A stretch of 64,000 bases of DNA, taken from assembly GCF_932294415.1 (NCBI RefSeq), contig NC_065545.1:41268327-41332326 (forward strand), in the 5' to 3' direction. The position numbers were made by a program, and so were the translations under genes. This DNA comes from Quercus robur. Taxonomy: Eukaryota > Streptophyta > Magnoliopsida > Fagales > Fagaceae. Below the pieces are notes generated by a model that searched no databases, was not told where the DNA came from, and saw nothing but the letters and a program-made list of their open reading frames with translations. This document shows positions 5,796-51,705 of the stretch, piece by piece. Every line of letters begins with the position of its first letter. Position 1 is the stretch's first letter.

Positions 5796-7671
5796 GTCTT
5801 TCTTCTCTGTTTGTTGGCTGGGTGTAGCATCTGCTGGTTCAACACTGTCTGTTTTGTTCTTTGCAATCAAAACTTTCCAGCTAATCGTCCCCTTGCCATC
5901 TCTCTGACAGTAAGCTACAATGGTGTAAGTGCAGCCTTATACGCTCTTGCTGCCAATGCAATTGATCCTTCATCTGATGCATTATATCTTCTTTTGAATG
6001 CCCTCATTCCTCTGCTCACTTCTGTTGTATCACTAATACCAATTCTTCGCCAACCATCTCTAGACCCTCTTCCACCTGATGCAGTTCGCCGTGACTCCCT
6101 TATATTTCTCTTTTTGAATTTCTTAGCAGTTGTTACCGGTATTTACCTTCTTATCTTTGGTTCTACCACAACTGATTTAACAACAGCTCGTATCCTCCTT
6201 AGTGTAGCCATTTTCTTACTAATCTTCCCTCTATGTATCCCTGGCGTTGTCTATGCTAAAAATTGGTTCCGTACCATTCATTCTAGCTTTCACTTTGACG
6301 GCTCTGGCTTCATTCTTGTTGAGGCAGATGATCTTGAGCTTCATAAGGAGCTCCTTTCACGTCATGCTAGTAGTATTGGCTCTATTGGAAATGGATCACT
6401 CTCTCATCTCTTAAGTGATAATGGATCTGTGATTGCAATCACCAGACAGAAAACTGGAGAGATTGAAGGATGTTTTCAGAGAATGCTTGTTAGGGATCAG
6501 TTGGCAATGCTTGGGCAAGAGCACCCAGCTGGAGTGCTTGTACGTAGGATCGATTTTTGGCTATACTATTTGGCTTATTTCTGTGGAGGCACAATTGGCC
6601 TTGTGTATAGTAACAATCTAGGACAGATAGCACAGTCATTGGGACAAAGTTCAAAAACTACCACCCTCCTTACTCTCTATTCATCATTCTCCTTCTTTGG
6701 CCGATTGCTTTCTGCAGTACCAGACTACATTCGCGCGTAAGTAATCACAACTATTACTTTTACAGTGCTTTTGGAAATAGATTGATGATGAATGACTACT
6801 AATGCACGGTGACTAGTATCAATGTCCTTATTTCAAGGGATATTTTCGAAAAATATGAAGAGAAAAGAACATTAGGAAGAGAGAACATGGAGTCTGCATA
6901 ATGCTTATGCTTGCATTTTAAAATTTTGACCATAATCTAAGAAAACAGATTCCTCTCTACTTCACGGTTAAAATTTTATTTCTTAGATTTGACAGTGTAC
7001 GGAGTTTCTTAATTTGAACAATGAAATGGATCCATTTCAAATGGAGAGGATCCTAACACAATGAGATACTAATGTAAAGGATCAATGCATGTGTTGTTGT
7101 CAAACTTAATTGAAGTTTCTAAAATGTTGTAAAAAATTTAAGAAGATGTAGCATAATAACCAATATTTTACGACACTTACAAATTCTTACTTTGTGCAGA
7201 AAGTTCTATTTTGCTAGGACTGGATGGCTGACCATTGCACTTTTGCCAACCCCAATTGCATTCTTCTTGCTAGCAAGTTCAGACAGTGCGGTCGTACTGC
7301 ATGTTGGCACTGCACTGGTTGGGTTGAGCTCTGGGTTCATATTTGCTGCTGCTGTATCAATTACATCCGAGCTGTTTGGACCTAACAGCGTAGGCGTCAA
7401 CCACAACATGCTCATCACCAATATCCCAATTGGGTCACTTGTATATGGATGTCTTGCTGCATTAGTCTATGATGCCAACATAAGCCCTGGCTTAGGAAAC
7501 ATACTAATGTCTGATTCGGCAGTGTGCATGGGGAGGCAGTGCTATTTCTTAACATTTTTGTTATGGGGTTGCATATCAGTTCTGGGACTAGTTTGTAGTA
7601 TGCTGTTATTTTTTAGAACCAGACATGCTTATGACCTTTTTGAACAGAACCGTATATCACAACTCTATTAG
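5796..7671 (+). CDS. Nodulin-like / NFD4-type MFS transporter, C-terminal two exons
   Basis: This is a membrane carrier of the plant Nodulin-like branch of the major facilitator superfamily; its substrate is unknown. Exon 5796-6736 starts after TTTCAG and opens with a hydrophobic helix containing LLAGCSICWFNTVCFVLC, then QNFPANRP, typical of the family. Donor GTAAGT is at 6737-6742, intron 6737-7199, and the acceptor is TGTGCAG. Exon 7200-7671 continues in phase (DYIRA|KFYFARTGW) and ends at TAG with the usual C-terminal block containing CMGRQCYF. The visible part is 470 residues with multiple membrane helices. Family members are about 80-90 residues longer at the N terminus, and no first exon is seen in the upstream 5.7 kb. 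Either the first intron is very long or the gene is 5'-truncated. No stop or frameshift is seen in the two exons. Confidence 0.85.
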
Positions 7672-10114: not shown

Positions 10115-10899
10115 TGTAGGGGTAAAGTCCCAAGATCATACAATGGGCCTTGGGCCCTATATAAAATTCGACCACGTCCGAGGAGAAGGTGTGGGTACCA
10201 AAAGGGCTCCCGGCCCAATTCTTATGGGCCTAAAATTGTTTAAAAGGCGGTCCGAGGAGAAATGTCTCCTCGGACATACCAAATGTGGCTCGAACATGCA
10301 CTTTGCCAGCTATAAGGATTCACTCCAACGAGTATTAGTAACAGGGATGAGTCCCACAAGCCCGTAAGAGGGAGGAAAGTGTAGGATGCCAATGGAGAGA
10401 CTACAGTTGTCACATTAAATGCAAGGAAGCTACTTTTCCAGCCGCATTAATGTGGAGAGGACTTGTGAACAGTGTTATCTTGGCTACCACAACTCACAGA
10501 AAGATGGGCGAGATGTCCGATGGGACGGGCACTTAAGTGAAGGTCTAGATGATTAACAATTGTAAGGTCCTGATGACTTCAAGGGGGCTATATAAGAGGG
10601 GGGAGTCTCCATGAAGAAGGGGACGGAAAAAAGGGAGTAACTTAGAACAGAAGAAGAGGGTGAGAACCATAGCCTTTGAGTAGAGACAGAGATACATCCC
10701 CTACGTCTCCTCGGACCGTATATCTAATGGACATGAAGGAGATTTTCTTATTTTCGATTGTTGTATGACCCAATGTTAACTAGTATGCACTTTATTAGGG
10801 CCTAGTTCTGTAACCCACTCTTTATAAATTCATTGTTTCGGGCTCTTTGGGCCAGAACCCCATACCTGTTGGGCCTGGACCCCGAATCGTGACCCTACA
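10115..10899 (+). repeat. 5' LTR of Tat element
   Basis: 785 bp, TG..CA with the perfect inverted ends TGTAGGG/CCCTACA. A TATA-like ‘gctatataagagg’ lies near 10587, and a GGGCC-rich block near the 3' end probably belongs to R/U5. It contains a hairpin at about 10250-10274 whose second arm is missing in the 3' LTR. Confidence 0.93.
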
Positions 10900-10901
10900 A
10901 T

Positions 10902-10919
10902 TGGCGCCATCTGTGGGGA
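10902..10919 (+). promoter_or_regulatory. Primer binding site
   Basis: TGGCGCCATCTGTGGGGA starts two bases after the LTR. It would pair with the 3' end of a tRNA ending GGCGCCA. By memory of plant tRNAs, tRNA-Lys fits about 14 of 18 positions, so the assignment is tentative. Confidence 0.75.
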
Positions 10920-10952
10920 GAACTTGTGCTTCAGCAAGTGAGACCGTTAGAG

Positions 10953-12457
10953 ATGGAAGGATCAGGTCTGCGCCAAACGGGACACGCAGACTCCCAACGG
11001 CAGGACAACTTCTTGAACCTCGAACGGGAGAGAGATCAAGACAAGCGACGAGAGGGTAGTGTAAATACCTTCCACACGAGTAGAAGTCGCTCAAAAGGGA
11101 AAGGACACGCATCCCAAAAGCGAAGCGATCATAGGGCTCTACAGTAAGAAATCGATGACTTGAAGAAGAAGTTACGCTGAGTGCAGCGAAGGCGTCCTTC
11201 CCCCAACCCGGACAATAGCGATGAAGAGGACAACGAGTACAGGCAGAGATCGAGAACCTCGCCAAGTGAAACCTTCTCCTATGAGGAAGAGCAACCTCAC
11301 AAACGCGACCACAAAAGCCCATCTTACCAGGGTCTAGCAAACGACGCCATGAGTAAGGCCCTGGACCGCATCTCCCAGTCACCCTTCACGTGTAGGATAG
11401 AAGGGGTTGAGCTTCCTCGGCGGTTCCACCAACCCACTTTTGCCATATATAATGGTTGGACGGACCCAGTAGAGCACGTAAGCCAATTTAACCAGAGGAT
11501 GAACGTCCATTCTTGGGATGAGGCGTTGATGTGCAAAGTGTTTTCGTCTAATTTAGGACCCATGGCGATGAGATGGTTCAATGGCCTCAAGCCAAACTCC
11601 ATAAACTCTTTTAAGCAGCTGACACAGGCTTTCAGTTCTCGCTTCATAACTAGCAGCAGGGTCCCTCGGCCCCTAGACTCCCTCCTGTCCTTGTCCATGC
11701 GAGAAGGAGAGACCCTAAAAGCCTACTTAGACAGATATTGGGAAATGTATAAGGAAATAGGGGGAAATTACGATGACGTCGCCATTAGCACATTCAAGAG
11801 GGGACTGCCGATAGAGCATGGTTTAAGAAATTCCCTGACTGGGAAACTAGTCACCAGCGTGCGCCAACTCATGGACAGAATCAACAAGTACAAGAGAGTC
11901 GAAGACGGGAAATGGAAAAACGAAGGTTGTCCCTCAAGAGAGGAGGGACTTTAGGTCGGACCACTTTAACAACAGTAACCAGCCGAGAAGGGATTACTCG
12001 GAGTAATTTGGATCCATAGGGGCATAGGCAGTCCATGCTATGTTCCGAGAACCATTACATAAGATCCTAGAAAAAGTGAAGAACGAACAATTCTTTCAAT
12101 GGCCAAGCAGGATGGCAGGCGACCCCGCGAAACGTAACCAGAATTTGTATTGCGAGTATCACCAAGAGCCGGGCCACACCATCAATGACTGCTGGAATCT
12201 GAAAAACCACTTGGATCGGCTGGTCCGAGAGGGAAAGTTGAGACACCTCTTACATCATCCTGTTGGACGGCAGGAGCAGTCGAACGTCGAAACAAGGCAA
12301 AGCACATTGAGACCACCCATTGGCACGATAAATGTCATTCTTGCCGTACCAGGAAGAACCGACTCCCATCCTTTCAGAGTGATGTCGGTGGGTCGACTCC
12401 CCGCTGAAGCTGACGACCGGGAGTCTAAGAGGGCTAGAGGGATGGCCACGCCCTAAT
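10953..12457 (+). pseudogene. gag: gag (capsid) of Tat element, broken
   Basis: The frame opens at ATG 10953, 54 bases after the LTR. An arginine/serine-rich N-terminal part is interrupted by TAA at 11145 and TGA at 11178. The retrotransposon gag domain runs from about 11400 to 11910, with the recognisable words MRWFNGL and LDRYWEMYKEI. A TAG at 11952 and a frame change follow, after which 12040-12457 carries a zinc-knuckle-like stretch (C..YHQEPGHTINDC) and a basic tail. The product would be the capsid/nucleocapsid protein that packages element RNA. At least three stops and one frame shift make it non-functional as a single product. Confidence 0.88.
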
Positions 12458-12477
12458 CGGATTCTCGGATGAGGACA

Positions 12478-12900
12478 AACTAAGAACCCTTCAGCCCCAC
12501 GATGATGCTCTAGTCGTCACGCTTAGGATTGGGGGATATGACGTGAAGAGGGTGCTAGTCGATCAGGGCAACGCTGTGGAAGTAATGTACCCCGACTTGT
12601 ACAAGGGGCTGAAGCTGAAACCAGAGGACCTGACAGCATACGATTCCCCTTCAGTGAGTTTCGAGGGAAAAACTGTCACTTCGAAAAGCTTGATTAGGCT
12701 GCCTATACAAACAGGCTCGGACGTAGTGGAGGTGGACTTCATAGTGGTAGATGCTTACTCCCCCTACACCGCCATTGTAGCCAGACCGTGTTTCACGCCC
12801 TAGGGGCTGTGTCATCAACCTTACACCAAAAGGTGAAGTATCTGTCGGAGGGTTGAGTGAAAGAAGTAATAGGGGACCAAGCCATGGCCTGGCAATGCAT
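12478..12900 (+). pseudogene. Aspartic protease region of pol, degraded
   Basis: Residues encoded at 12543-12803 match the retroelement protease in layout: the active-site region reads LVDQGNAVEVMY, with DQG where aspartic proteases carry DTG or DSG. The frame ends at TAG 12801, and related sequence continues in another frame (about 12806-12900). In an active element this enzyme would cleave the Gag-Pol precursor. The altered triad and frame break argue it is dead. Confidence 0.75.
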
Positions 12901-13081
12901 GGTGTCCGCCATCTCGCGACGACCGAGTACTGAGCCCTCCACCTCAGTCGAGAACGGCTTATAGCAATTAACAACCCCGGCCTTGGCCTCGTGTAGTGAG
13001 GGACCTGCTGAGGGAGTGAGTTGTGAGGATTTAGAGAAATTTCTTGTGGGCTCCGACTCGGAAAGATTTTTTCAGGTTGGC

Positions 13082-14380
13082 TCAGAACTGCCGCCATAAG
13101 AGAAGGAAACGGTGATTGACTTTCTCAGATAGAATGTGGACATGTTTGCATGGGACGCCTACGAGGCTCCGGGGGTTGATCCAGATTTCATTTGTCACCA
13201 CCTTAATGTTAGCCTGGCCGTAACACCTAAGAAGCAACCTCCTCGGCGATCGTCGAAAGAGCATGCAGATGCGGTGAGAGAGGAGGTTATAAAATTGAAG
13301 AAAGTAGGGGCTATCAAGGAGGTATTTTACCCCGAGTGGCTGGCCAACATAGTCGTGGTGAAGAAGAAGAGTAGGAAATGGCGGGTCTGCGTGGACTTCA
13401 CAGACCTGAATAAGGTCTGCCCAAAGGATCCTTTCCCTATGCCTCGGATAGACCGATAGGTGGATTCGACCGTGGGACACCCTCGAATGAATTTTTTGGA
13501 CGCCTTCCAAGGCTACCATCAGATACCCCTGGCTGCTGAGGACCAAGAAAAAACGGCTTTTGTCACCCCCATTGGAAACTACCACTACAAGGTAATGCCC
13601 TTTGGCTTGAAAAATGCCGGGTCGACCTATCAGAGGATGATGACCAGGATGTTTGAACTACAGATGGGTAAGAGCATCGAAGTCTATATAGACGACATGG
13701 TGGTGAAGAGCAAGTTAGTGTCCAACCACGTCAGAGACCTCGGTGATGTCTTCGGAATTCTGAGAAAGTACAGGTTGTGCCTGAACGCGTTTAAGTGTTC
13801 ATTCGGAGTGGGGTCAGGGAAATTCTTAGGTTACATGGTGACCCATAGAGGTATTGAAGTCAGCCCCGACCAAATTAGAGCTATCCATAGCCTGCAGCCT
13901 CCTTAGAACCCCAAAGAGCTCCAAAAACTCACTGGCATGATTGCCACCTTAAACCGTTTCATCTCCAGCTCGGCGGACAGGTGCAGGCCTTTCTTCCACT
14001 TATTAAATAAGTGGAAAGGCTTTGAGTGGACTGAAGAATGTGCCTTAGCCTTCCAGCAGCTTAAGGAATACCTGTCTCGGCCACTAATCATGTCCAGTCC
14101 TGAAACCGACGAGGTACTATTCGCCTATGTTGTGGTAGCCCCTCACGCAGTGAGTCTCGTGCTAATTCGGGAAGACAACGGCCCATCTACTACGTAAGCA
14201 AATCGTTGCACGAGGCAGAGATCCGTTACCTCCCCCTCGAAAAGGCCGTTCTGGCAATCGTACAAGCCATGTGAAAGCTCCACCACTACTTCCAGGCACA
14301 TACCGTTATTGTACTAACCCAACTCCCGCTCAAATCAATACTCCGGAGTGCCGACTACACGGGCAGAATAGCAAAGTGGG
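13082..14380 (+). pseudogene. pol: Reverse transcriptase and first RNase H, broken
   Basis: The RT fingers/palm begin at about 13280 (GAIKEVFYPEW, WRVCVDFTDLNKVCPKDPFP). A TAG at 13457-13459 interrupts, and the next frame holds MPFGLKNAGSTYQRMM and the catalytic YIDDM (13685-13699). A second TAG falls at 13903-13905. The RNase H of the RT type follows (FEWTEECALAFQQLK). The reading frame shifts near 14190 and a TGA lies near 14272. The product would copy element RNA into DNA and remove the RNA strand. The catalytic residues of RT are present, but the frame is broken at least four times. Confidence 0.9.
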
Positions 14381-14790
14381 GGACGATTCTGGGCGCCTTC
14401 GACATTAGGTACATGCCTCGCACCACTGTGAAGGGTCAGGTTCTCGCGGATCTGGTAGCTGAGTTTGCTGAACCCACATCAGAAGGAGGAGGAGGGCTAC
14501 TAAACTCAGACGGAAAACTGATCGGCACAGTCTCTCAGCAAGAGCCCACTTGTTGGAAAGCGCACGTTGACGACGCGGCCAACCAAAGGGGCTCAGGGGT
14601 GGGGCTCGTCCTGGTTTCCCCCGAGGGGATTACCATCAAAAAATCGTTAAGACTGGGTTTCTCTGCCACGAATAACGAGGCAGAGTATGAGGCATTGTTG
14701 GAAGGAATGTCAATGATCTAGAAACTGGGTGAGAAATCCATAAACATGTTCTCGGACTCAAGACTTGTTGTGTGACAAGTAAATGGGGAA
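14381..14790 (+). pseudogene. Second (archaeal-type) RNase H domain, broken
   Basis: After a linker, the sequence HVDDAANQRGSG, then NNEAEYEALLEGM, FSDSRLVV and (at about 14910) HADSLATLA give the Asp-Glu-Asp-Asp pattern of an RNase H-like fold. A second RNase H between the RT-type RNase H and integrase is a known mark of Tat-lineage elements. Stops at 14719 (TAG) and 14774 (TGA) split the domain. Confidence 0.82.
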
Positions 14791-16275
14791 TTGGAGGCGA
14801 GGGATGAAAGAATGCAAGAGTACTTAGTCCAAGTCAAGCGCTTGCAGGCGCATTTCAACCATTTCAGCCTAATGCACGTATCTAGGAGCGGGAACACCCA
14901 CGCTGACTCCCTTGCAACGCTTGCCACCTCCTCAGCTCAACCACTCCCTTGGGTCATACTCGTAGAAGATCTATACAGGCCAACGATGGTGAGAACCGAC
15001 TTGGTACTAGTTCACAGCGTCAGGGTAGGGCCTAGCTGGATGGATCCTCTAGTACTATTTTTAAAAAACGACACCTTACCAGAAGATAAGAACGAGGCCG
15101 ACAAGATTAGAAGAAAGGCTTCTCGATTTTGGCTGTCCGAGGACTCCAAACTGTATAAGCGCTCATTTTCAGGACCATACTTGCTATGCGTGCACCCAGA
15201 TGCCACTGAGCTTATCCTGGAGGAATTGAACGAAGGAATTTGTGGAAGCCATACGGGGGGTAGGTCCTTGTCCCATAGGGGCATAACGCAAGGTTATTGG
15301 TGGTCGAGCATGCAGAAAGAGGCGCAGGAATATGTGAAGAAGTGCGATCAATGCCAAAGGTTCGCCCCAAATATACATCAACCAGGCGGAACCCTTAATC
15401 CGCTATCCAACCCTTGGCCATTCGCGCAGTGGGGCCTGGACATCCTAGGACCATTTCCTAAAGCAGTGGGGAACAAAAAGTTTCTTCTTGTCGGCACAGA
15501 TTATTTCACAAAATGGGTCGAAGCTGAGCCGCTGGCAAACATTAGAGATGTTGATGCCAAGAAATTTGTTTGGAAAAATATCATCACCGGGTTCGGAGTT
15601 CCTCATACCCTAATCTCGGACAACGGTCTCCAATTTGATAGTAAAGCTTTCAGAAGGTATTGTAGCGAGTTGAGAATTGCCAATAAGTACTCCACACCAG
15701 CTTACCCACAGGGGAATGGGCAGGCTGAAGCCGTCAATAAAGTCATATTAAATGGGTTGAAAAAGAGATTAGATGACGCGAAAGGGAGGTGGGTAGAAGA
15801 ACTGCCCCATGTCTTGTGGACGTACCACACCACGCCACGCAGGTCCACAGGGGAGACCCCATTTTCAATGACCTATGGAGCTGAGGCTGTTATTCCTCTA
15901 GAGACAAATTTCCCAACACTGAAGACCAGCACATTTTGCCCTAATGCTAACAACGAACTGCTGGAAGAAAGCTTAGAACTCATTGAGGAAAGAAGGGAGA
16001 GAGCGATGATCCAACTCGCCTACTACCAGCATAAGCTCAAGCAAGGTTACGATGCCAAGGTGAAGCTAAGGCCCCTGGCACCCGGGGAACTGGTATTGAG
16101 GAAGGTCCTGGGCACTGCAAGAAATCCCGCGTGGGGAAAACTCGTACCAAATTGGGAAGGCCTATATCGTATCACCTCGATGGCCGACATAGGGGCCTAC
16201 TTTTTAGAAGATTTGGACGAACATGTAGTGCCACGCCCTTGGAATGTAAATAATCTGAAAATGTACTATTATTAA
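14791..16275 (+). CDS. Integrase segment of pol (end of second RNase H plus integrase)
   Basis: This is the longest intact frame of the element, 494 residues. The first 45 residues finish the second RNase H. Then comes an HHCC zinc region (CGSHTGGRSLSHR ... CDQC) and the DDE core: Asp in QWGLDILGP, Asp in LISDNG, and Glu in GQAEAVNK, with 35 residues between the last two. The C-terminal part (ELVLRKVLGTARNP ... WEGLYRI) is the usual end domain; no chromodomain is visible. Integrase would insert the cDNA and make the 5-bp target duplication seen here. The frame is intact but lies downstream of several stops, so it is unlikely to be made from this copy. Confidence 0.88.
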   Translation: MEARDERMQEYLVQVKRLQAHFNHFSLMHVSRSGNTHADSLATLATSSAQPLPWVILVEDLYRPTMVRTDLVLVHSVRVGPSWMDPLVLFLKNDTLPEDKNEADKIRRKASRFWLSEDSKLYKRSFSGPYLLCVHPDATELILEELNEGICGSHTGGRSLSHRGITQGYWWSSMQKEAQEYVKKCDQCQRFAPNIHQPGGTLNPLSNPWPFAQWGLDILGPFPKAVGNKKFLLVGTDYFTKWVEAEPLANIRDVDAKKFVWKNIITGFGVPHTLISDNGLQFDSKAFRRYCSELRIANKYSTPAYPQGNGQAEAVNKVILNGLKKRLDDAKGRWVEELPHVLWTYHTTPRRSTGETPFSMTYGAEAVIPLETNFPTLKTSTFCPNANNELLEESLELIEERRERAMIQLAYYQHKLKQGYDAKVKLRPLAPGELVLRKVLGTARNPAWGKLVPNWEGLYRITSMADIGAYFLEDLDEHVVPRPWNVNNLKMYYY

Positions 16276-16315
16276 TGAAAGTTTGTAATTCTTGGCGCCA
16301 CACCATTGTGCAATT

Positions 16316-16740
16316 TTATCCAAGTGTTAAATAGAACCCAAGTCTTGGCTGGCTCCTTGGACCACAGGCTTGGGGGAAATTAACCACTACGCGATTCTAG
16401 CTAAGTGTTAAACAAAACCCAAGTCCTGCCTGGCTCCTCAGACCATAGGCTTGGGGGAAATTAACTACTACGCGATTCTATCTAAGTGTTAAACAGAACT
16501 CAAGTCCTGCCTGACTCCTCGGACTACAGACTAGGGGGAAATTAACTACTGTGTAGTTTTATCTATGTGTTAAACAGAACCCAGGTCCGGCATGGCTCCT
16601 CGGACCACAGGCTTGGGGGAAACTAATCATGATGTAAGTTTATCTAGATGTTAAACAGATCCCAAATCTTGTGTGGCCCCTTAGACCACAGGCTTGGGGG
16701 AAATTAATCTTGATGCAGTTTTATCTAAGTGTTAACTATC
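16316..16740 (+). repeat. ~82-bp minisatellite between pol and antisense gene
   Basis: About five head-to-tail copies of a unit near 82 bp. Each has a TAAGTGTTAAACAGAACCC-like start, a TGGCTCCTCGGACCACAGGC-like middle and a CTTGGGGGAAATTAA end. The same array in diverged form occurs at about 46985-47400 in the second element, in the same position relative to the antisense gene. Confidence 0.85.
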
Positions 16741-16989
16741 ATTTTTTCATTCTTTCATTCATGCTTAGCCGTATTGCTTAAACTTCGAGTAACGTTTGGC
16801 TCTCAGTAGTTAGTAACATAACCAAAATTCATTCATTACAAAGGCAGAAAAGGAAGCAGTAAAACAAGATTCAAAGAAGAAGTCATATCATTCATTAGGC
16901 TCTGAAATGTATTTTCTTACAAACATTGGCAAAATAAGGAAATAAAAGATAAAAGAAGACAACTACAAGAAAAGTCCTATACTAATGTC
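16741..16989. other. Spacer between minisatellite and antisense gene end
   Basis: AT-rich sequence with no frame. On the minus strand it would be the 3' flank of the antisense gene; an AATGTA-like and AATAAA-poor context gives no clear poly-A signal. Confidence 0.4.
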
Positions 16990-19472
16990 CTAAGCTTTAT
17001 CTTGGGCAGCACTCTTTGCAGGGACCTCTACCTCAGGGTGATCGCCTCCTACCTTGGGCTCAGGTACGGCCTCCTTGGATTGCGCGACAACGTCCCTTAT
17101 AGTGAAGGCGTCCTCAAGCGACTTGTCCTTTGCAAGTGGCTGCACCTCCTCGGCTTCAAGTATGAAGGAATCCGGAGTAGTGACCCTAGCAGAGAGGGGC
17201 TCCTCAGGAGGAACCGAGCCCGGAATCTCGCGAATATCTTCAGGAAAGAAGATATTCTCAATCTTCCTAAGTTCGGAGTCCACGAGAACTGCCACCCGGT
17301 CCAAGGCCACCCCCCAGGACATAGTGATGTAGTCCCTACAAACCGTAGCCACCTCCTCGGTTAGCTTGGCTTCGGTGTCCCCCACTCCGTGTTCGTAGGA
17401 GGCTGCCACCGCAACCTCAGCCGCCTCCCTAGCCAAGTGAGCTGCCTCTTTTGTCTTTGATAGCTCTGCCTTGAAGTCCAAAACCATCTGCGTCTTGGTC
17501 GCGAGGTTTATTTCGGACTGATGAAGCTGTTGGTGCATGTTCTCAGCCTGCTTGGTTGTGGTCTTAAGTCCGACCTCAGCACTGTCACGGGTCTTCAGCG
17601 CCTCCTTTATTTCCTTATTCAAGAGATCCTTTTCCAGCCTGAGGACACCGGTAGCCTTCTCCGCGGCAAGGCAGGACTGAACCTCAGTATTCAGATCTTC
17701 ATGAGATTTCTTGGCCCACTCCTCAGTTACGAAGATTTGTTGAGTGACCTGTGTGGGAGTAATGGAAGAATCATTAAAAGAAAATAACAAATAGGTAGGT
17801 GCGGAATAAAGAAATTGGACAAGGAGGAGTCTTCGTTTACCATGGCCAAATCTCTCTTCAGCGACATAAAGAGATCCGGTTGTCGAGTAGCTCGGAGCCC
17901 CTCCATGTCACGAGGCAAGAGAAGGGGCTGTTGCAAGGCCTCAGCAAGGTAAGACGCCTGTCCTCGTTGGGTCTCCCACAGAGTCGCGTCCCACGAGATA
18001 GGGGTGCCGTCCAGCTCTAGGCGTGGGGACCAGGTCCGCTGCTCCCTCCTTACAACTGCCTCGTCTCGGCTATCAACAGACCTTGTCCTTTTTTCCTTGG
18101 GCTCTTTACCTTTCTTCTGTTGCTTAGCCTTTTCAGGGCCAACCTCGCCCTCTTCCAACTCTTCCACTGGTCTCTTCCGCCTCAAATTAGGAAGAGGTTG
18201 TAGCGTTGGGTCAGTTGAAGGGGGAAGAGGAGGAGGAAGCTTGGCTGTAACCTGCTCCTTGGGGGCATCCCTGGAAGACTACCCTCTGTTTCTATTGGAT
18301 AAGAGGCCCCTGAGACCAGACCTTGGCTTCAAATCCATGTCCTCTTCTTCAATCTTTTGGTTAGTGTCAACCTGAGCAATTACTAAGCCAAGAGTGGGAG
18401 CCGCCGAGGAACGATCTATGTCCGAGTCGGAGTCTGAGAGCTCTACAGGCCTGGTTGATACCTCTCCCTCCTCGGCGAAGTGGAATTGGGCAATTTGAGC
18501 CTCAAGAGATGAGTGCGAGGAATCAACTCCTTCTCCTGGGACAACTACCTCTGGAAGAACGCGCTGAACAGGCAATTGGACGGGAGGTAGGTCTCTCCGA
18601 GCAAGAAAGTTTGGTTTAGAAACGTCGATGCGAGCTAATTGGGGACTTCTAGCCCTGATGGCTTGACCGGCATCCACGAAAGCGCGTGAAAGGGGCTCGT
18701 AGTCCAAGATAAGAGGAGCAGCACGTAGTTGCCCGTCTTCACTCACAAAGATTTCGGACCTTAAGAGGAAGTTAAGGGTCTGGACATTGACCAAACTTAT
18801 CCGCGGAGTTGTTTGTTCTTTGTCTGCAAAAACCCAAAGGAAGGGTTATGTTAGTCCGAGGAGGCAAATAATCAAAACTAAAACTGAAATAAGGAAGAGA
18901 AAAACTCGAGACTAAGATCCCCTCCAAGGGATCTGACCCTATAGTGCCCCACCTGGTATTCCCACCCTAATTGGGCAGTGAAGACCGTCGTGCCATGCTC
19001 CAGAGTCGATTAAAAGGTCATCCTTCAAGCCTTTGTTGGACTTGAGAAGGCAGGATATCAGCCTCACCTCGTCGGACCTAGATTTTAGGTAATACAACTC
19101 ATTGAGGCTATGACATTCATATAGGTGAACTACATCGTGCCATGAGAGGCCGAGGTTCATCTGTTCGTTCAGAGTGTCTACGCACCCCAGGATTCGAAAC
19201 ATGTTTGCGGCGCACTGGTGGGGGGCCAGCCTATGACCACGCAAATAATCCCTAGTTATTCTCCTCATAGGGATCGTCATTCCTCCTTCTATGAAAGCTA
19301 TCATTGGAATGACGACCTGCCCCGTCTTTCTCTTGGTTAAGATCTCGTCCAAGGAGCAATATTCTAGACCTACTCTCGGCGAGATATGGTATTTGGCCCT
19401 TAAGCCTTCCATACCGGCTGGAGAGTCTACCAGTTTCTTAAGCTTACTCATCCCACTAACCCTAGGCGACAC
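16990..19472 (-). CDS. Antisense three-exon gene of Tat element
   Basis: Three exons on the strand opposite pol are joined by consensus splice sites that I can read: exon 1 about 19472-18953 (donor CAG|GTGGGG), exon 2 18823-17841 (acceptor TTTGCAG, donor ATG|GTAAAC), exon 3 17748-16990 (acceptor CCCACACAG). Phases agree. Exon 1 carries a globular region with IPMIAFIEGG and MFRILGCVDTLNEQ, resembling the domain often labelled putative gypsy-type transposon. Exon 2 is acidic then basic, with a short SDSDSD tract and EELEEGEVGPEKAKQQKKGK. Exon 3 is a long coiled coil with alanine, lysine and glutamate. Total about 750 residues. One in-frame TAG at 18279-18281 is the only clear break. Extra ORFs in this position, including antisense ones, are known in plant Ty3/gypsy elements; the function is unknown. 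The exact start is uncertain (a GTG-led frame at 19472; the first ATG is about 21 bases further in). Confidence 0.72.
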
Positions 19473-19982
19473 GAAGAAGGTTTACTTAAGGAAGAAAGCC
19501 GGGAAAGGCAACGGAGGGGAAATGCTAAGTAATACGAGAAATGAGCACTTACAGGAGCGAAGATCCTAAACCTCTCGAGCTTGTGAAGAACTCGCCGGGA
19601 ATCTTCAAGGGAGTGTCTGTGGAGTTTTGAATGCTTTGCAAAAGGAAGTACTAGAGTGCTTTGGGATGCTTGAGTGCTTTTTCAAAAAAATGGAAATAAT
19701 TCCCCTTGGAAATCTTATATAGCGGGGAGAAAATGAATGGGCTTACTCCCGCCCAGAGAATTGGGGAAATATCAACCGTTGATCAGGCGCCCCACCGTTG
19801 GATTCGAGGGACATAAAGCCGCCTAACGCAATAATTAGCGCCTCATGGGTTACGAAACGCCAGTAGCAGTAATTGGGTATGTGAGGCTGTACCTCCACAC
19901 GCGTAAAACAAGGATTTACAATAAGTAATCCCATAAGTGTCAAAATCCCTCCTTTTCTCTTCGGATAAGAGAGAAAGAATCG
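19473..19982. other. Presumed promoter side of the antisense gene
   Basis: A short region between the antisense gene start and the polypurine tract. On the minus strand it precedes exon 1; an ATATAAGATTTCC word (about 19705-19720, reverse complement) is TATA-like. No other coding signal. Confidence 0.4.
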
Positions 19983-19999
19983 GAATTTTGAGGGGCTAT
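19983..19999 (+). promoter_or_regulatory. Polypurine tract
   Basis: The short purine-rich stretch GAATTTTGAGGGGCTAT directly abuts the 3' LTR. The counterpart in the second element (ending at 51309) reads GAGGTTTTGGACGGCTAT. Confidence 0.65.
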
Positions 20000-20768
20000 T
20001 GTAGGGGTAAAGTCCCAAGATCATACAATGGGTCTTGGGCCCCATATAAAACTCGACCACGTCCAAGGAGAAGGTGTGGGTACCAAAAGGGCTCCCGGCC
20101 CAATTCTTATGGGCCCAAAATTGTTTAAAAGGCGGTCCGAGGACGTACCAAATGTGGCTTGAACATGCACTCTGCCAGCTATAAGGATTCACTCTAACGA
20201 GTATTAGTAACAGGGATAAGTTCCACAAGCCCGTAAGAGGGAGGAAAGTGTAGGATGCCAAGGGAGAGGCTACAGCTGCCACATTAAATGCATGGAAGCT
20301 ACTTTTTCGGCCGCATTAAGGTGGAGAGGACTTGTGAACAGTGTTACCTTGGCTACCACAACTCACAGAAAGATGGGGGAGATGTCCGATGGGACGGGCA
20401 CTCAAGTGAAGGTCCAAATGATCAACAAGTGTAAGGTCCTGATGACTTCAAGGGGGCTATATAAGAGGGGGGAGTCCCCATGAAGAAGGGGACGGAAAAA
20501 AGGAAGTAACTTAGAACAGAAGAAGAGAGTGAGAACCATAGCCTTTGAGCAAAGACAGAGATACATCCCCTACGTCTCCTCGGACCGTTTATCTAATGGA
20601 CATGAAGGAGATTTTCTTATTTTCGACTGTTGTATGGCCCTATGTTAACTAGTATGCACTTCGTTAGGGCCTAGTTCTGTAACCCACTCTCTATAAATTC
20701 ATTGTTTTGGGTTCCTTGGGCTAGAACCCCATACCTGTTGGGCCTGGACCCCGAATCGTGACCCTACA
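20000..20768 (+). repeat. 3' LTR of Tat element
   Basis: 769 bp, same TG..CA ends as the 5' LTR. It lacks about 16 bases present at 10257-10273. Differences from the 5' LTR are mostly transitions. Confidence 0.93.
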
Positions 20769-20773
20769 ATTAT

Positions 20774-21351
20774 GATTGTAGGGTTCAATTCAGGTGGCAC
20801 AACGATATGATCACTTGGTAAGATAAGAGATTTATGGTGGTGACAAGTTTTGTACTGAACTTCAAGATCAAACATTCAAATCAACCCTTTTAAGAAGAAA
20901 ATATTGGATCAACTTTAGCGTGCATGGACATGTTGGAGAGAACTATAGTGCTTTGCTTTTATCATTAGGTCAGTTTGTTGGAGTATATAAATAGGTGATT
21001 ACCATGTTGGGAAATTACCATCTTTTGTTGGAGCTTCTTAATGATAGATGTAGTAAGTAGAAGTTGTTACGGTAGAGCTTTTGTCAGTGTATGGTATAAA
21101 TATGTTAATAGGGAGGTTGTTGGATGGGGTTTATGGGTTTCCGTGGGAATAAACTACAGACTATATTAATGTATTTTGAAATGATTCTTACTAAACTTAT
21201 TTTGTATCTATGCTTAGTATATTTTTTTTTATTAGCATTATTATTATTTTTTAAAGACAATAAAGGAAAGGCTAGATATCACAGTTCTTATTCAAGGGTA
21301 AACCTTGAAAGTGAATTGTCTATGTTGCTTGCATAAATCTGTTGGGAGGTG

Positions 21352-46930: not shown

Positions 46931-46984
46931 ATAATAATAATGAATATGACAATATGAAAATATGATGGCATTACACCAATTCAT

Positions 46985-47400
46985 ACCTTGGGTAAATTAA
47001 TGCTCTCCAGTATTCGTTTAAGTGTTAAATAGAACCTTAGTCATGTCTGGTTCCTCGAACCACATACCTTGGGTAAATTAATGCTCTCTAGTGTTCGTTT
47101 AAGTGTTAAATAGAACCTCGGTCATATCTGGTTCCTCGGACCACATACCTTGGGTAAATTAATGCTCTCCAGTGTTCGTTTAAGTGTTAAACAGAACCTC
47201 CGTCATGTCTGGTTCCTCAAACCACACACCTTGGGTAAATTAATGCTCTCTAGTATTCGTTTAAGTGTTAAACAGAACCTCGGTTATGTCTGATTCCTCG
47301 GACCATATACCTTGGGTAAATTAATGCTTCTTAACGCTCTAAGTGCTAAACAGAATCTCGGTTATGCCTGATTCCTTAGATCACCTACCTTGGGTAAATC
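46985..47400 (+). repeat. ~82-bp minisatellite of second Tat element
   Basis: About five tandem units, each with TTAAGTGTTAAACAGAACCT, a TGGTTCCTCGGACCACATAC-like middle and CTTGGGTAAATTAATGC. Weaker related units continue to about 47900. Confidence 0.85.
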
Positions 47401-48035
47401 AACACCTGATTTACTAGTAAAGGATGATAGAGACTCTTAATGCAATACCCTTGTTGAAGAAATCTCCATGAGCATCACTTAAAGCAATTGAAAGTATATC
47501 CATGAAATATTCTTTGCTGATAAGCATAACTTCATAATGCATTGCTTCTCGGACTACAGGCCTTGGGTATAGGAGCACAATGTAACTTTTCTATGTTAAG
47601 TAGAACCTTGGTTAGACTCAACTCCTTGAGTTGTCTACCTTGGCTTAATTGACATCAAGATCATATTGATGATAAGTAACACCTTGTTAGAATTTAACCC
47701 CATGAAAGATCTGTCTCAGGTAAGTTAGCGCTTAGGTTGCTTTGTATATTAAACAGAGCCTTTACTAAGTTAAACCCTCTTTATCACTTGCATTGTGTTT
47801 GCGACATTTGATATAACCGTGATTATGTTCTGTTTCCTAAGTAACTTACTTAGGGAAATTAACACATAACATGAATACATCTTTGCACGAGCATATGTTA
47901 AACAGGGCTTAGGATCCTAAAAAGAAAAATATATAATATTAAGTACAAAGATGAAATGACAAAAGCTAGTAAGAGTTTTTCATTAATTCAAACCACAAAA
48001 GATACATAACGCAAAGAAGGAAAGTACAAAATGCC

Positions 48036-50850
48036 TTTTGTTTCTATATAAAAAAAAAAAAAAAACACAAAAAACAACTAAGAAAAAGGAACAAAGGTCC
48101 ACTACCATGGTCTTTAGGCTTTAGAAGTCCTTTGTGCCTCAGTTTATGTTGTGGTTTGCACTTCGGGAGTTGGAGTGGGGGCAGAAGTGGCCATTGTGGT
48201 TGGTGGCGCATTTGTAGAAAGGTCATTAGCTGGGGGAGGCACCTTGGCTGCCCTTTTAGTGCCTTGGACAGCAATTGTGCTAAGTTTGGAGACAACTAGC
48301 TTGGTTTGTTTGGTCTTGGTAGGAATGAGAGTGCTTGGTTGTTGCTCACTTGGTTTGGCCTGGGCTAACACAATAGCTTGGGGCTGTTGCTCGCTGGGTT
48401 TGGTTTTGGCTGGAGCAGTAGTTTTGGGCTGCTACTTGTTAGGCTTAGCTTTGGCAGGGGTAATGGTACTAGGCTTTGGATGAATGGCCTCTGTAGAGCT
48501 CGCTGGGGTTGAAGTGGAAGTGCTGACAGAGGATTGGAGAGCTGGGCGAGTTCTACTTGCTGGGGGGTAGAAGGCTCTCTCAAGATTCCTCAATTCTGAG
48601 TTGGAGTCCACCCTAGCAGTATTCAAGGCCTCGATCCATGTCTGTAGGCAAAAGCTGCGGCATACAATAGGTAGTTGGGACTTTAAGTGAGTCTCAGTCT
48701 CCTTCTGCCCTTGGTCGTAAGCCGTTTGCTCGTCCTTCTCTATCTCCTTGTCCTTTAAGACGAGCTCCTTCCTCAGCTTTGTGATGGTTGTCTGAGCAAA
48801 GGCGAGTTGCTTCTCAGCCTCCCTCAGCTGCACCAACTACTCCCTAGCTTGCCTTTTTGTGCTTTCTATGGAAGCCTCAGCGCTTTTTCTCACCTTATCA
48901 CACTCAGCCAATTTTTGGAGGGTCTCCTTCAGCTTCTTGTCAGTGGCTGCCTAGGCCTTTTGCACAGCAAGGTGTTTGGACTTCTCCTCCTTTGTGTCAT
49001 GGAAGGCCTGGTTCACCAATTCCTCTACTACATGTGCTGCTTAGGTAGCCTGGGTGTAAACAATTCATATTAAAGTTAGTAGGGAAACTTGTGTGGAGGG
49101 CCATTAAATAGTAATACAGAGGAGAAGTGTTACCAAGCCCAAGTCCCTCTTCACAAATAGGAAGAGCTCGTGCTTCTTTAAGTTTTGAAGCTCATCCATA
49201 TCCCTAGGGAGTAGAAGGGCTTGCTCCACAGTGTTGGCTATGTAGCCAACTCTTCCACCGTCGAAATCCCGGATGGAAGCGTCCTCTAGGAGAGGTGAGT
49301 CGTCCAGAGCAAAGGAAGGGTTCCAGATTGGAGCCTTGGACCTACGCTCGGAGGCGGTGTTGGATCTCTCTACACCCTTTCTTTGCTGGGTGCGAGTCAT
49401 CTTGACCACCTTGGTGGGCTCTAAGGGAGTTTCCTCTTGAACCTCTCCCTCATCTACAACTCCTTTGCCCACTCTCCTATCCCTTTTTCGCTTTTTATCT
49501 ATTGGTTCTATCTGGATGGAGGCTGGAATGATTGGAGTTAGAGGCCTTAGAATGACTGGAACCTCAGGCATTGTAGTCCTAGCGTGGGATTCCAATAGAG
49601 AAAGTAGGCCTGGAAGCCTTCTCTCTATCACCATGTCTTCTGGTGCTTCAGTGTGTTCTTGGTCTTCACTGACAAGAATTGTGGTGGACTGGGGGCTAAG
49701 TGTTTCCTCCTCGGATGCATGGGTGTTTTAAAAAACTTCAAAATCCTTGTCTCGGACAGGATTTTCAGTATCCTCCTCCAAGATGTCCTCTGATTCTGTA
49801 TCCTCTCCTTCATTTGAGGATGTGATCTCCTCTATTACAAGTCGATGCCTCTCGGGAGCAGGAAGTTCAGTAGGCTCTAGGTTTGTGAAGGTAGATAGCT
49901 CGATTATTTGCGTTCCTTTGGGGGGAGGCTAGCTTATGAAACCTTCAATAGCCACGTCAACCAATGCGAGGTGGGAATCCCGAGCTTTAATCACATGTTT
50001 GGACTTTTGGAAGCGGTTGGATATGGGGACAAAGCCTAAGATAACATGAACTGCTCGAAATTGACCATCCTTGTGTAGGAAGATCTCGGATCTTAGGACT
50101 TGATTTAGCAACTCAAAGTTTACCAGGCTTCGTCTTTTGGCAGTAGCTCTTTTTTTTTTGAAAAAGAAAAATCAAGGGTTATCATTAGTTAACAGGTCGG
50201 GCGAACCTCAATCCAAACAAGTAAAAGATAAATGAGCATACAAAAAAGTAAATTTGATAAAATATCATGTAAAAAGTTATGCGTAATTTCCTAAGCTAAC
50301 ACTATTTTTTATTAAGTGTCCCTAAGCAATCCCACATGGAGTTCCATCCTTGGTAGGGGAATGGAGTCCGTCGTGTCACTCTCTTGACACAATGAGAAAG
50401 TCCTCGTCAATGCCTTTGTTCATTTCAGGGAGACAAGAAATTAACCTAACAGTGGGAACCTTAGTTTTTAGGTAGTAGCCCCCCCATCAGCATATTTTTG
50501 ACAACTGTACACCCAATTCACATTGTGGTGGGTAAGTTGTATGCCCAATTTTTCGTTTAGAGCATCTACACTACCTAGTATTCTAAACATATTAGGGACA
50601 TACTGGGTAGGACACAATCTAAAAAGGTTTAAAAAATCCCTAGTAACTCTACCCATAGGAATCCTCATGCCTCCCTCAATGAAGGCAATCATAGGAATTA
50701 CAACTACACCAGTAGGCCTTCTTTCATGCCATTCACCTTGATTACAGTGTTGTATGGACACATTATTGGGTATCTCATAGTACCTCTTAAATTCCTCTCA
50801 GTTTTGAGGAGTCTCAACTAAGCTAAGAAATCTACCCATTTAGGAAAAAG
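48036..50850 (-). pseudogene. Antisense gene of second Tat element, degraded
   Basis: Homologous to the three-exon antisense gene at 16990-19472. Exon 1 part (50850-50340) keeps VVIPMIAFIEGGMRIPM and NMFRILGSVDALNE. Exon 2 part (about 50150-49130) keeps VLRSEIFLHKDGQFRA, the RKR-rich basic tract and LLLPRDMDELQNLKKHELF. Exon 3 part (about 49060-48110) keeps the coiled coil and a Thr/Pro-rich tail. Several stops and frame shifts occur, including TAG/TAA breaks between the pieces, so no full product is possible. Confidence 0.72.
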
Positions 50851-51309
50851 AAGAATCAGAAAATGAGAAAGAGTAAAGGGAGAACTCTGCTTAACAGAGA
50901 TACGCACTTACGAATTTAGGGAAGGAAAACTCCTTGGGCAAGATTATCAGATGAAAAGAGTGTGCTTAAGTTCTTTTCTGCTTCTAGGGAGGTAAAATGG
51001 AGAGAAGAGTTTCACATCTCATTATAAAAAAGCTGGGAAAAGAGGGAGTGGTAAACCTCCCTCCCATTCTACTAGAGAATCCTAGGCCGTTCGATCAAGA
51101 TCTCACCGTAGAACGTGGTAGACAGTAGGCCATCAATCGCATTTATTACAGAGTTGAGGGTTCCAAAGCGTCAGGAGCGCATCACAGTCAATTGAAAAGA
51201 CATGCTCGTGGGGGGAACCTATTTACGAGTATATCCTTATTAGTGACTTTGCTAGCCAAAACCTCATCTTTCTTGGTTAGGGGTGAAAAATGAGGTTTTG
51301 GACGGCTAT

Positions 51310-51705
51310 TGTGTGGATGAGGATCCTTAATCTCATTTAAGTGGATTGCTAAGATGATTTCCAAGGATGCACCTCGGACCTCGAGGACGAGCATTGAATA
51401 ACCACGAAACGAGCACCCGTTGACCTGGGGGACGAGCAATAACCATGTGAGGCACGTAAAGTTAAAATATCACAAAGGAAAGAAAGTAGGCTTGGCACGA
51501 GTTACGAGGAGGGTGAAAGGAGAAGGGAGTGGAAGCTATCCCTTCCGCATTAAATGCAAGACAACTGCTCCTTAGGCCGCATTAATGAGGAAATGACCAT
51601 GAACAGTGGTGGCACAGCTCAGATTGCAAGGCAGAAGCTTACTAGTGTGTTCTGGAGGGGACAGAAGTGCTAAAAATGCAATCTCAACCCTCCAAGTGTA
51701 GGATG
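51310..51705 (+). repeat. Truncated 3' LTR of second Tat element
   Basis: Starts TGTGTGGATGAGG after a GGCTAT that matches the junction of the intact element. The block with CATTAAATGCAAG and GGCCGCATTAATG (about 51551-51592) matches the middle of the first element's LTR. The part with the poly-A and GGGCC block is missing. Confidence 0.7.

Follow-up and report, generated by a model that had tools for sequence, protein, structure and literature searches.

A minus-strand gene with introns, almost free of stop codons, lies inside a retrotransposon whose own coding sequences have decayed, and this raises the question of what the gene is and whether selection has kept it. An earlier note on the 64,000-nucleotide stretch of DNA analyzed here (the window) had described three minus-strand coding exons with agreeing phases, about 750 codons and one stop at 18279, all of which we reproduced. 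The gene is real, well-formed and of a known kind. That it is an antisense accessory gene carried by a Ty3/gypsy element of the Retand type, including the transcript, the protein and the regulatory role in trans proposed below, we consider very probable.

The gene lies within the limits of a full-length LTR retrotransposon on the plus strand (10115-20768), whose LTRs both start with TG and end with CA and which carries an identical 5-bp TSD, ATTAT, on both flanks. The parts of the element outside the antisense gene are:

10115-10899, 5′ LTR, 785 bp, from the LTR alignment
10588, TATA of the LTR, in the 5′ LTR
directly after 10899, PBS
10944-16275, plus strand, broken gag-pol with 13 nonsense codons and 4 frame changes
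16310-16735, plus strand, 81-bp tandem array of 5.3 units
20000-20768, 3′ LTR, 769 bp, from the LTR alignment

Pfam matches in the sense frames follow the Ty3/gypsy order (Retrotrans_gag, RVT_1, RVT_3, Integrase_H2C2, rve), with weak matches to an aspartic protease (E 0.024) and to RT_RNaseH (E 0.17). The RVT_3 match lies immediately before the integrase domains (E 9.1e-5; 0.0027 in the preceding piece). According to the available text of PMC6317226, Ogre and Retand have an additional RNase H, of the archaeal type, located between RH and INT. The layout of gag-pol, array, antisense gene and 3′ LTR agrees with the descriptions in the available text of PMC11963269 and PMC6317226, and the element is therefore of the Retand type (Tat clade, Ty3/gypsy), the choice between Retand and the neighboring Ogre being set by anatomy and not by RT phylogeny. 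The region between pol and the 3′ LTR (16276-19999), which holds both the antisense gene and the array, measures 3.7 kb, within the 2.9-6.6 kb given for Retand elements, as are the LTRs within 315-1194 bp (PMC11963269, available text). The earlier note had placed the gene opposite pol; pol, however, ends at 16275, and the gene sits between pol and the array on one side and the 3′ LTR on the other. Over 769 aligned sites the two LTRs are separated by 35 transitions and 7 transversions, which corresponds to a K2P distance of 0.057. With 6.5e-9 to 1.3e-8 substitutions per site and year, the insertion would be 4.4 to 2.2 million years old. A search of 16250-20800 against Rfam gave no family matches.

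The antisense gene extends beyond the three coding exons described earlier: it also has a putative TATA box (19722), a leader exon and an intron in the leader (19552-19462), none of which had been noted. Its features are as follows, with exon/intron borders marked by a slash:

19714-19722, minus strand, putative TATA box CTATATAAG, 278 bp inside the 3′ LTR border
19553-19692, minus strand, untranslated, ATG-free leader exon, its 5′ end placed about 30 nt past the TATA box
19552, minus strand, leader donor CCT/GTAAGTGC (GTAAGT), with GTAAGTGC at the aligned place (50911) in a second copy of the gene
19462-19552, minus strand, leader intron, acceptor CGCCTAG, the AG missing at the aligned place in the second copy
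18953-19461, minus strand, start-codon exon with the TRP28 (Transposase_28) region, ATG at 19451
18824-18952, minus strand, intron A, 129 nt, phase 1, donor CAG/GTGGGG, acceptor TTTTTGCAG
17841-18823, minus strand, exon with the acidic/basic middle region, internal stop at 18279-18281
17749-17840, minus strand, intron B, 92 nt, phase 0, donor ATG/GTAAAC, acceptor CACACAG
16990-17748, minus strand, last exon with the long-helix (coiled-coil-like) tail, stop at 16990

Joined, the coding exons (19451-18953, 18823-17841, and 17748-16990) give 747 codons including the final stop. The single internal stop in the 746 antisense codons, at codon 348 (18279-18281), spares the TRP28 region and costs the protein its basic middle part and tail. 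The splice sites had been called good, and the three exons and their introns were indeed confirmed, except that the donor of intron A (CCAG/GTGGGG) is weak; its GTGGG is nevertheless kept in the second copy. Each of the other five frames of this copy contains 18-42 stops over the 634 codons that can be aligned to the second copy, which excludes an open frame by chance. The idea that the gene has its own promoter is borne out as far as anatomy goes, in the TATA box and the ATG-free leader, and finds a precedent in Grande gene23, which according to the available text of PMC7264820 is transcribed from its own promoter and encodes a nuclear protein. By our reading of the sequence, the middle part of the antisense protein would be basic and resemble a nuclear signal. 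The coiled-coil tail proposed earlier is supported by a single-sequence model covering the N-terminal 181 residues encoded by the last exon (17206-17748; mean pLDDT 75.8, pTM 0.39), with predicted helices at residues 9-120 (112 residues) and 124-167 (44 residues). Such a predicted helix is as for a coiled coil, although a long helix is no proof of dimerization; the model of the TRP28 exon (mean pLDDT 39) yielded no usable structure.

The TRP28 assignment rests on profile matches below the curated threshold of 26.2 bits, the second copy scoring 23.4 bits against PF04195 (Transposase_28/TRP28; E 7.2e-5, profile positions 1-63 of 69) and the first 14.2 bits (E 0.052). Six positions, G21, P25, L34, P46, N47, and F55, are well conserved in the TRP28 alignment of PMC11963269, as given in its available text; mapped by hand according to spacing, four of these (G, P, L, and N) are kept in the first copy and five in the second, which has P46 too, with F55 replaced by V in both. 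The earlier note was right that no role has been assigned to such genes, yet the family has a name, and antisense TRP28 ORFs occur in 97% of recently active Retand clusters (61 of 63) with DNA binding predicted (PMC11963269, available text). Antisense TRP28 genes are thus a published hallmark of Retand, and the present gene is not new. It shares with the Retand ORFs of that survey its position between pol and the 3′ LTR, its orientation, its below-threshold TRP28 match and the array beside pol. The survey delineated ORFs with ORF Finder, whereas we present a four-exon model with coding-intron positions common to two elements. Grande gene23 is likewise antisense with a promoter of its own upstream and a nuclear protein (predicted in our case), although for gene23 both expression and localization were measured where here both are predictions, and we liken the two by description and not by sequence (PMC7264820, available text). 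HBZ of HTLV is also an antisense regulatory gene starting near a 3′ LTR, with no homology claimed, and the HTLV antisense promoter lies inside the 3′ LTR whereas the TATA box here lies 278 bp internal to the LTR border (PMC11963269 and PMC7264820, available text).

The word "intron" is absent from the main text of PMC11963269 and from the available text of PMC7264820, which itself calls for examination of antisense and spliced transcripts, and the available part of PMC3091746 holds nothing further on the antisense gene. Our literature search on antisense ORFs, introns and splicing listed a single paper, on human transposable elements; the primary publications on Grande gene23, on Retand and on the extra ORFs lay outside its scope, and we make no claim that introns in antisense TRP28 genes are unpublished.

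Evidence on selection comes from the second copy of the gene, found by a protein search of the window in which all four antisense pieces matched 48.5-50.8 kb (best E 4e-38, for the TRP28 exon). The same search of the 64-kb window with a pol piece (14776-16275) gave only the self-match. The second element (46980-51700, approximate limits) apparently comprises no more than the 3′ portion of an element of the Retand type, consisting of an array, an antisense gene and an LTR-like stretch:

46982-47399, plus strand, 81-bp array of the second element, 5.2 units
48145-50839, minus strand, second, divergent copy of the antisense gene, with the same coding-intron places and a 3′ limit obtained by reading the sequence

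The antisense proteins of the two copies are 37% identical over 634 aligned codons, 629 of them stop-free in both. The second copy is broken: a frame change interrupts its TRP28 exon, and the matched stretches hold six stops, five of which fall within the 634 aligned codons. Homology between the proteins extends to the final complete codon ahead of intron A, where either copy has a single exon base to spare, and starts again with the first complete codon beyond the intron. Around intron B, the matches in both copies stop two codons short of the donor and restart six codons past the acceptor; since these ends and resumptions are equal relative to the splice sites, intron B occupies the same codon in both. 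Of the six splice dinucleotides, the second copy retains those of the leader donor, donor A, donor B, and acceptor B, four in all, but not those of acceptor A and the leader acceptor, and a TATA-like stretch is aligned to the position of CTATATAAG.

Mismatches between the copies in the antisense frame number 317, 255, and 416 at the three codon positions of the 634 codons. A GY94 pairwise codon model gave an omega of 0.08 for this frame (629 codons, the five with a stop in either copy having been dropped), which we take as qualitative only, because synonymous sites are saturated (pS 0.78, computed without exon 3a; t about 8). The five control frames, each with 17-49 stops per copy, gave omegas of 1.07, 2.03, 1.14, 0.39, and 2.83; some of the control likelihood ratios (e.g., 508.8 in antisense frame 2) look like optimizer failures and were not used. 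The codon pattern points to purifying selection, of indefinite strength, on the element lineages before these insertions. Further copies of the family were sought in genome contigs, where none was confirmed among 47 and 237 pattern matches, and in viral contigs, where none was confirmed among 26, 0, and 17; neither collection is of plants, and the result says little.

Selection on the inserted copy is a separate matter. Its sense frames contain 13 nonsense codons and 4 frame changes (the latter placed by eye) in 1774 codons, against one break in the 746 antisense codons. Among the eight sense stops listed in the earlier note, 13903 should read 13904 and 14774 should read 14773, the stop at 11952 is only the end of an already shifted frame, and six further stops had been missed. 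With stops weighted by opportunity, the antisense gene has 1 of 14 (P 0.07), and with all breaks apportioned by length it has 1 of 18 (P 0.015); cruder frame limits, superseded by these, which give 17 sense stops with frame ends included, return P values of 0.024-0.026, and the eight stops of the earlier note 0.24-0.25. The difference in preservation is suggestive, not overwhelming.

A neutral clock set by the divergence of the LTRs predicts 1.8-2.6 stops in the antisense gene, where one is observed (P 0.27-0.46), and the gene therefore needs no protection after insertion to account for its state. Selection on this inserted copy, which we considered, is accordingly not supported. For gag-pol the clock predicts 4.8-7.0 stops and 13 are observed (P 0.001-0.027), an excess that hinges on the eye-placed frame changes, on possible gene conversion between the LTRs and on the assumed mutation spectrum. 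This excess over the prediction from LTR age suggests that gag-pol was already damaged when the copy was made and that its proteins were supplied in trans. Thus the claim that the antisense gene is better preserved than pol stands by count (1 versus 17 breaks), but is most naturally read as a sign that gag-pol was damaged early, not that the antisense gene was protected, its one stop matching the neutral prediction; selection of its own is supported for the element lineage, as judged from the codon pattern and the intron positions common to two elements, but not for the inserted copy. In Table 1 of PMC11963269 we counted ten clusters without GAG or RH/INT, or 15 if losses of AP only are included, all of which keep TRP28; the table is consistent with mobilization in trans, but with TRP28 in 61 of 63 clusters it does not discriminate. 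If the contrast between a decayed gag-pol and a near-intact antisense gene holds across copies, this would suggest that the antisense gene or its region is needed in cis, whereas gag-pol can be borrowed.

We propose that a TATA promoter a short way internal to the 3′ LTR border would produce a minus-strand mRNA with a spliced leader, which would encode a nuclear protein of about 746 residues with an N-terminal TRP28 domain, a basic middle and a long helical tail. The introns would persist because the template for retrotransposition is the plus-strand RNA, in which they are no introns. The protein would probably regulate its own family in trans and in a sequence-specific manner; a regulator had been suggested in the earlier note, and this is plausible given that the literature proposes nuclear, DNA-binding regulation, while nothing in these data pointed to the coat-like protein that the note had named as another option. 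The present copy would have inserted with gag-pol partly dead, probably mobilized in trans, and with the antisense gene intact or nearly so, and would have decayed neutrally since.

Other explanations of the gene account for parts of these data. The open frame might be a by-product of constraint on sense coding or composition, with splice sites arising by chance, and it is true that omega is also lowered, to 0.39, in sense frame 1, which shares third positions with the antisense frame. Over the 634 codons compared, however, that sense frame contains 18 stops in the first copy and 17 in the second, where the antisense frame contains 0 and 5. Moreover, at the protein level the homology of the second copy breaks off at the borders of intron A, and intron B falls at the same codon in both. 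The second copy thus speaks against this explanation, to which we give next to no credence. Domestication, in which the antisense gene of this copy would be under host selection, draws on the same contrast of 1 break in 746 codons with 17 in 1774 (P 0.015 by length), but is hard to reconcile with a premature stop at codon 348, with a number of stops that the neutral prediction covers and with a second copy that is broken as well, and we regard it as very improbable. A functional antisense transcript, for instance as double-stranded RNA limiting the element, has been proposed (PMC7264820, available text), and the minus-strand transcript would complement the 3′ part of the genomic RNA. Such a role would leave the amino-acid-level constraint and the shared intron phases unexplained, and as the main explanation it seems unlikely to us, although it may hold together with a coding function. 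The reading that we prefer remains that of a protein-coding accessory gene, which leads to the question of what its protein might recognize.

A possible answer lies in the array beside the gene. The unit consensuses of the two arrays have 55 of 81 bases in common, and the identity between the aligned arrays is 68.5%, compared with 55.8% for shuffled sequences (z 24.8; 60 mononucleotide shuffles per region, z rising with region length). The corresponding figures for the exons are 62.2, 57.8, and 57.6% (z 17.7, 11.0, and 2.1), and z is 6.0 and 0.8 for the introns, 1.6 for the spacer beside the array and 6.4 for the promoter region, those for exon 3 and intron B being approximate because the border of intron B in the second copy was set 8 bases off the donor. 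Raw identities in gap-heavy alignments mislead: the 0.685 of the array (shuffled 0.558) is surpassed by 0.815 in the spacer, where shuffled sequences reach 0.802, and by 0.695 in intron A, where they reach 0.601. The arrays thus share the 81-bp period and exceed their shuffles by more than any exon does, though the antisense proteins are only 37% identical.

Sequences of the array unit recur in the LTR. For the 81 cyclic 9-mers of the first unit, the total and maximum counts in the 5′ LTR were equalled in none of 1000 dinucleotide shuffles; for those of the second unit, the total was equalled in one of 1000 and the maximum in none. One 9-mer, TCCTCGGAC (or GTCCGAGGA), occurs 12 times in the window, starting at 10176, 10250, 10267, 10708, 15135, 16516, 16597, 18854, 20135, 20577, 47133, and 47295, and all 12 occurrences lie inside the two elements (0.14 expected). 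The motif was first spotted on visual inspection, the LTRs do not count as independent of each other, and four of the 12 sites are array units. The 5′ LTR has four of the sites, three of them upstream of the LTR TATA at 10588; the 3′ LTR and each of the arrays have two, and pol and intron A (18854-18862) have one each. An 11-base form with one mismatch allowed is found 15 times, again always inside the elements (0.26 expected), if a site at 51370 is counted, which lies in the apparent LTR of the second element, whose borders are approximate. Two sites in the 5′ LTR form a dyad:

10250-10275, no strand assigned, motif dyad GTCCGAGGAGA-4 nt-TCTCCTCGGAC in the 5′ LTR, a perfect 11-nt dyad

The 3′ LTR is without 16 bases of the 5′ LTR (10256-10271), so that one half of the dyad is gone there.

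These sites make TCCTCGGAC a candidate target of the antisense protein, although a host factor could equally bind it. It is feasible that the TRP28 protein is a sequence-specific trans-factor targeting TCCTCGGAC and that protein and array form a cis-trans module, acting for example in transcriptional activation or in a VANC-like anti-silencing, which if true would explain why the antisense gene and the array can survive where gag-pol is dead and supplied in trans; we put this forward tentatively, as the less probable account of the array. VANC of the Arabidopsis VANDAL elements, whose targets are often tandem repeats lying partly in the introns of the VANC gene itself, offers an analogy only, that of an element-encoded protein and short motifs in repeats and in its own introns (PMC5735166, available text). 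VANDAL is a DNA transposon and the VANC domains are DUF1985 and DUF287 (PMC5735166, available text), and VANC-like action would require the protein to bind the repeated motif and remove methylation, whereas the present case consists of the distribution of a motif. The explanation to which we lean slightly is that the shared array and motif result from recombination between the two elements, or are a host transcription-factor site, and have nothing to do with the antisense protein. An array could be carried across by template switching between co-packaged RNAs. Arrays are, moreover, highly variable and family-specific according to the available text of PMC11963269. Recent exchange agrees poorly with a spacer beside the array that is little alike (z 1.6) and with an identity of 68%, low for such an event; the host-factor form of the explanation is untouched by these points and stays fully possible.

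The array units could form an RNA hairpin of 14 pairs (16337-16375 and equivalent positions), in which 91.4% of cells are paired, a share that drops to 24-45% on sliding. This level of pairing was reached by 2 of 500 shuffles, and the score for covariation, some of which is seen between the two elements, by 1 of 500. Two-sided changes were reached by 199 and further pair types by 377 of 500 shuffles, so that neither is in excess. Folded singly, 4 of the 10 units, on both strands, stayed close to their shuffles (z from -1.9 to 0.5 and from -1.2 to 0.1), and a two-sided change is present at one pair of the minus-strand unit consensus.

The question of role, which concerns nearly all recently active Retand clusters (PMC11963269, available text), becomes testable at this locus. 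The intron-containing model names the transcript to seek and suggests why surveys of ORFs alone may see shortened proteins, and the presence of TCCTCGGAC in LTR, array and intron provides a concrete DNA target, which we consider the most useful new lead.

Elsewhere in the window, on the plus strand at 7123-7671, there is an open frame whose product we take to resemble a plant NFD4-type membrane protein.
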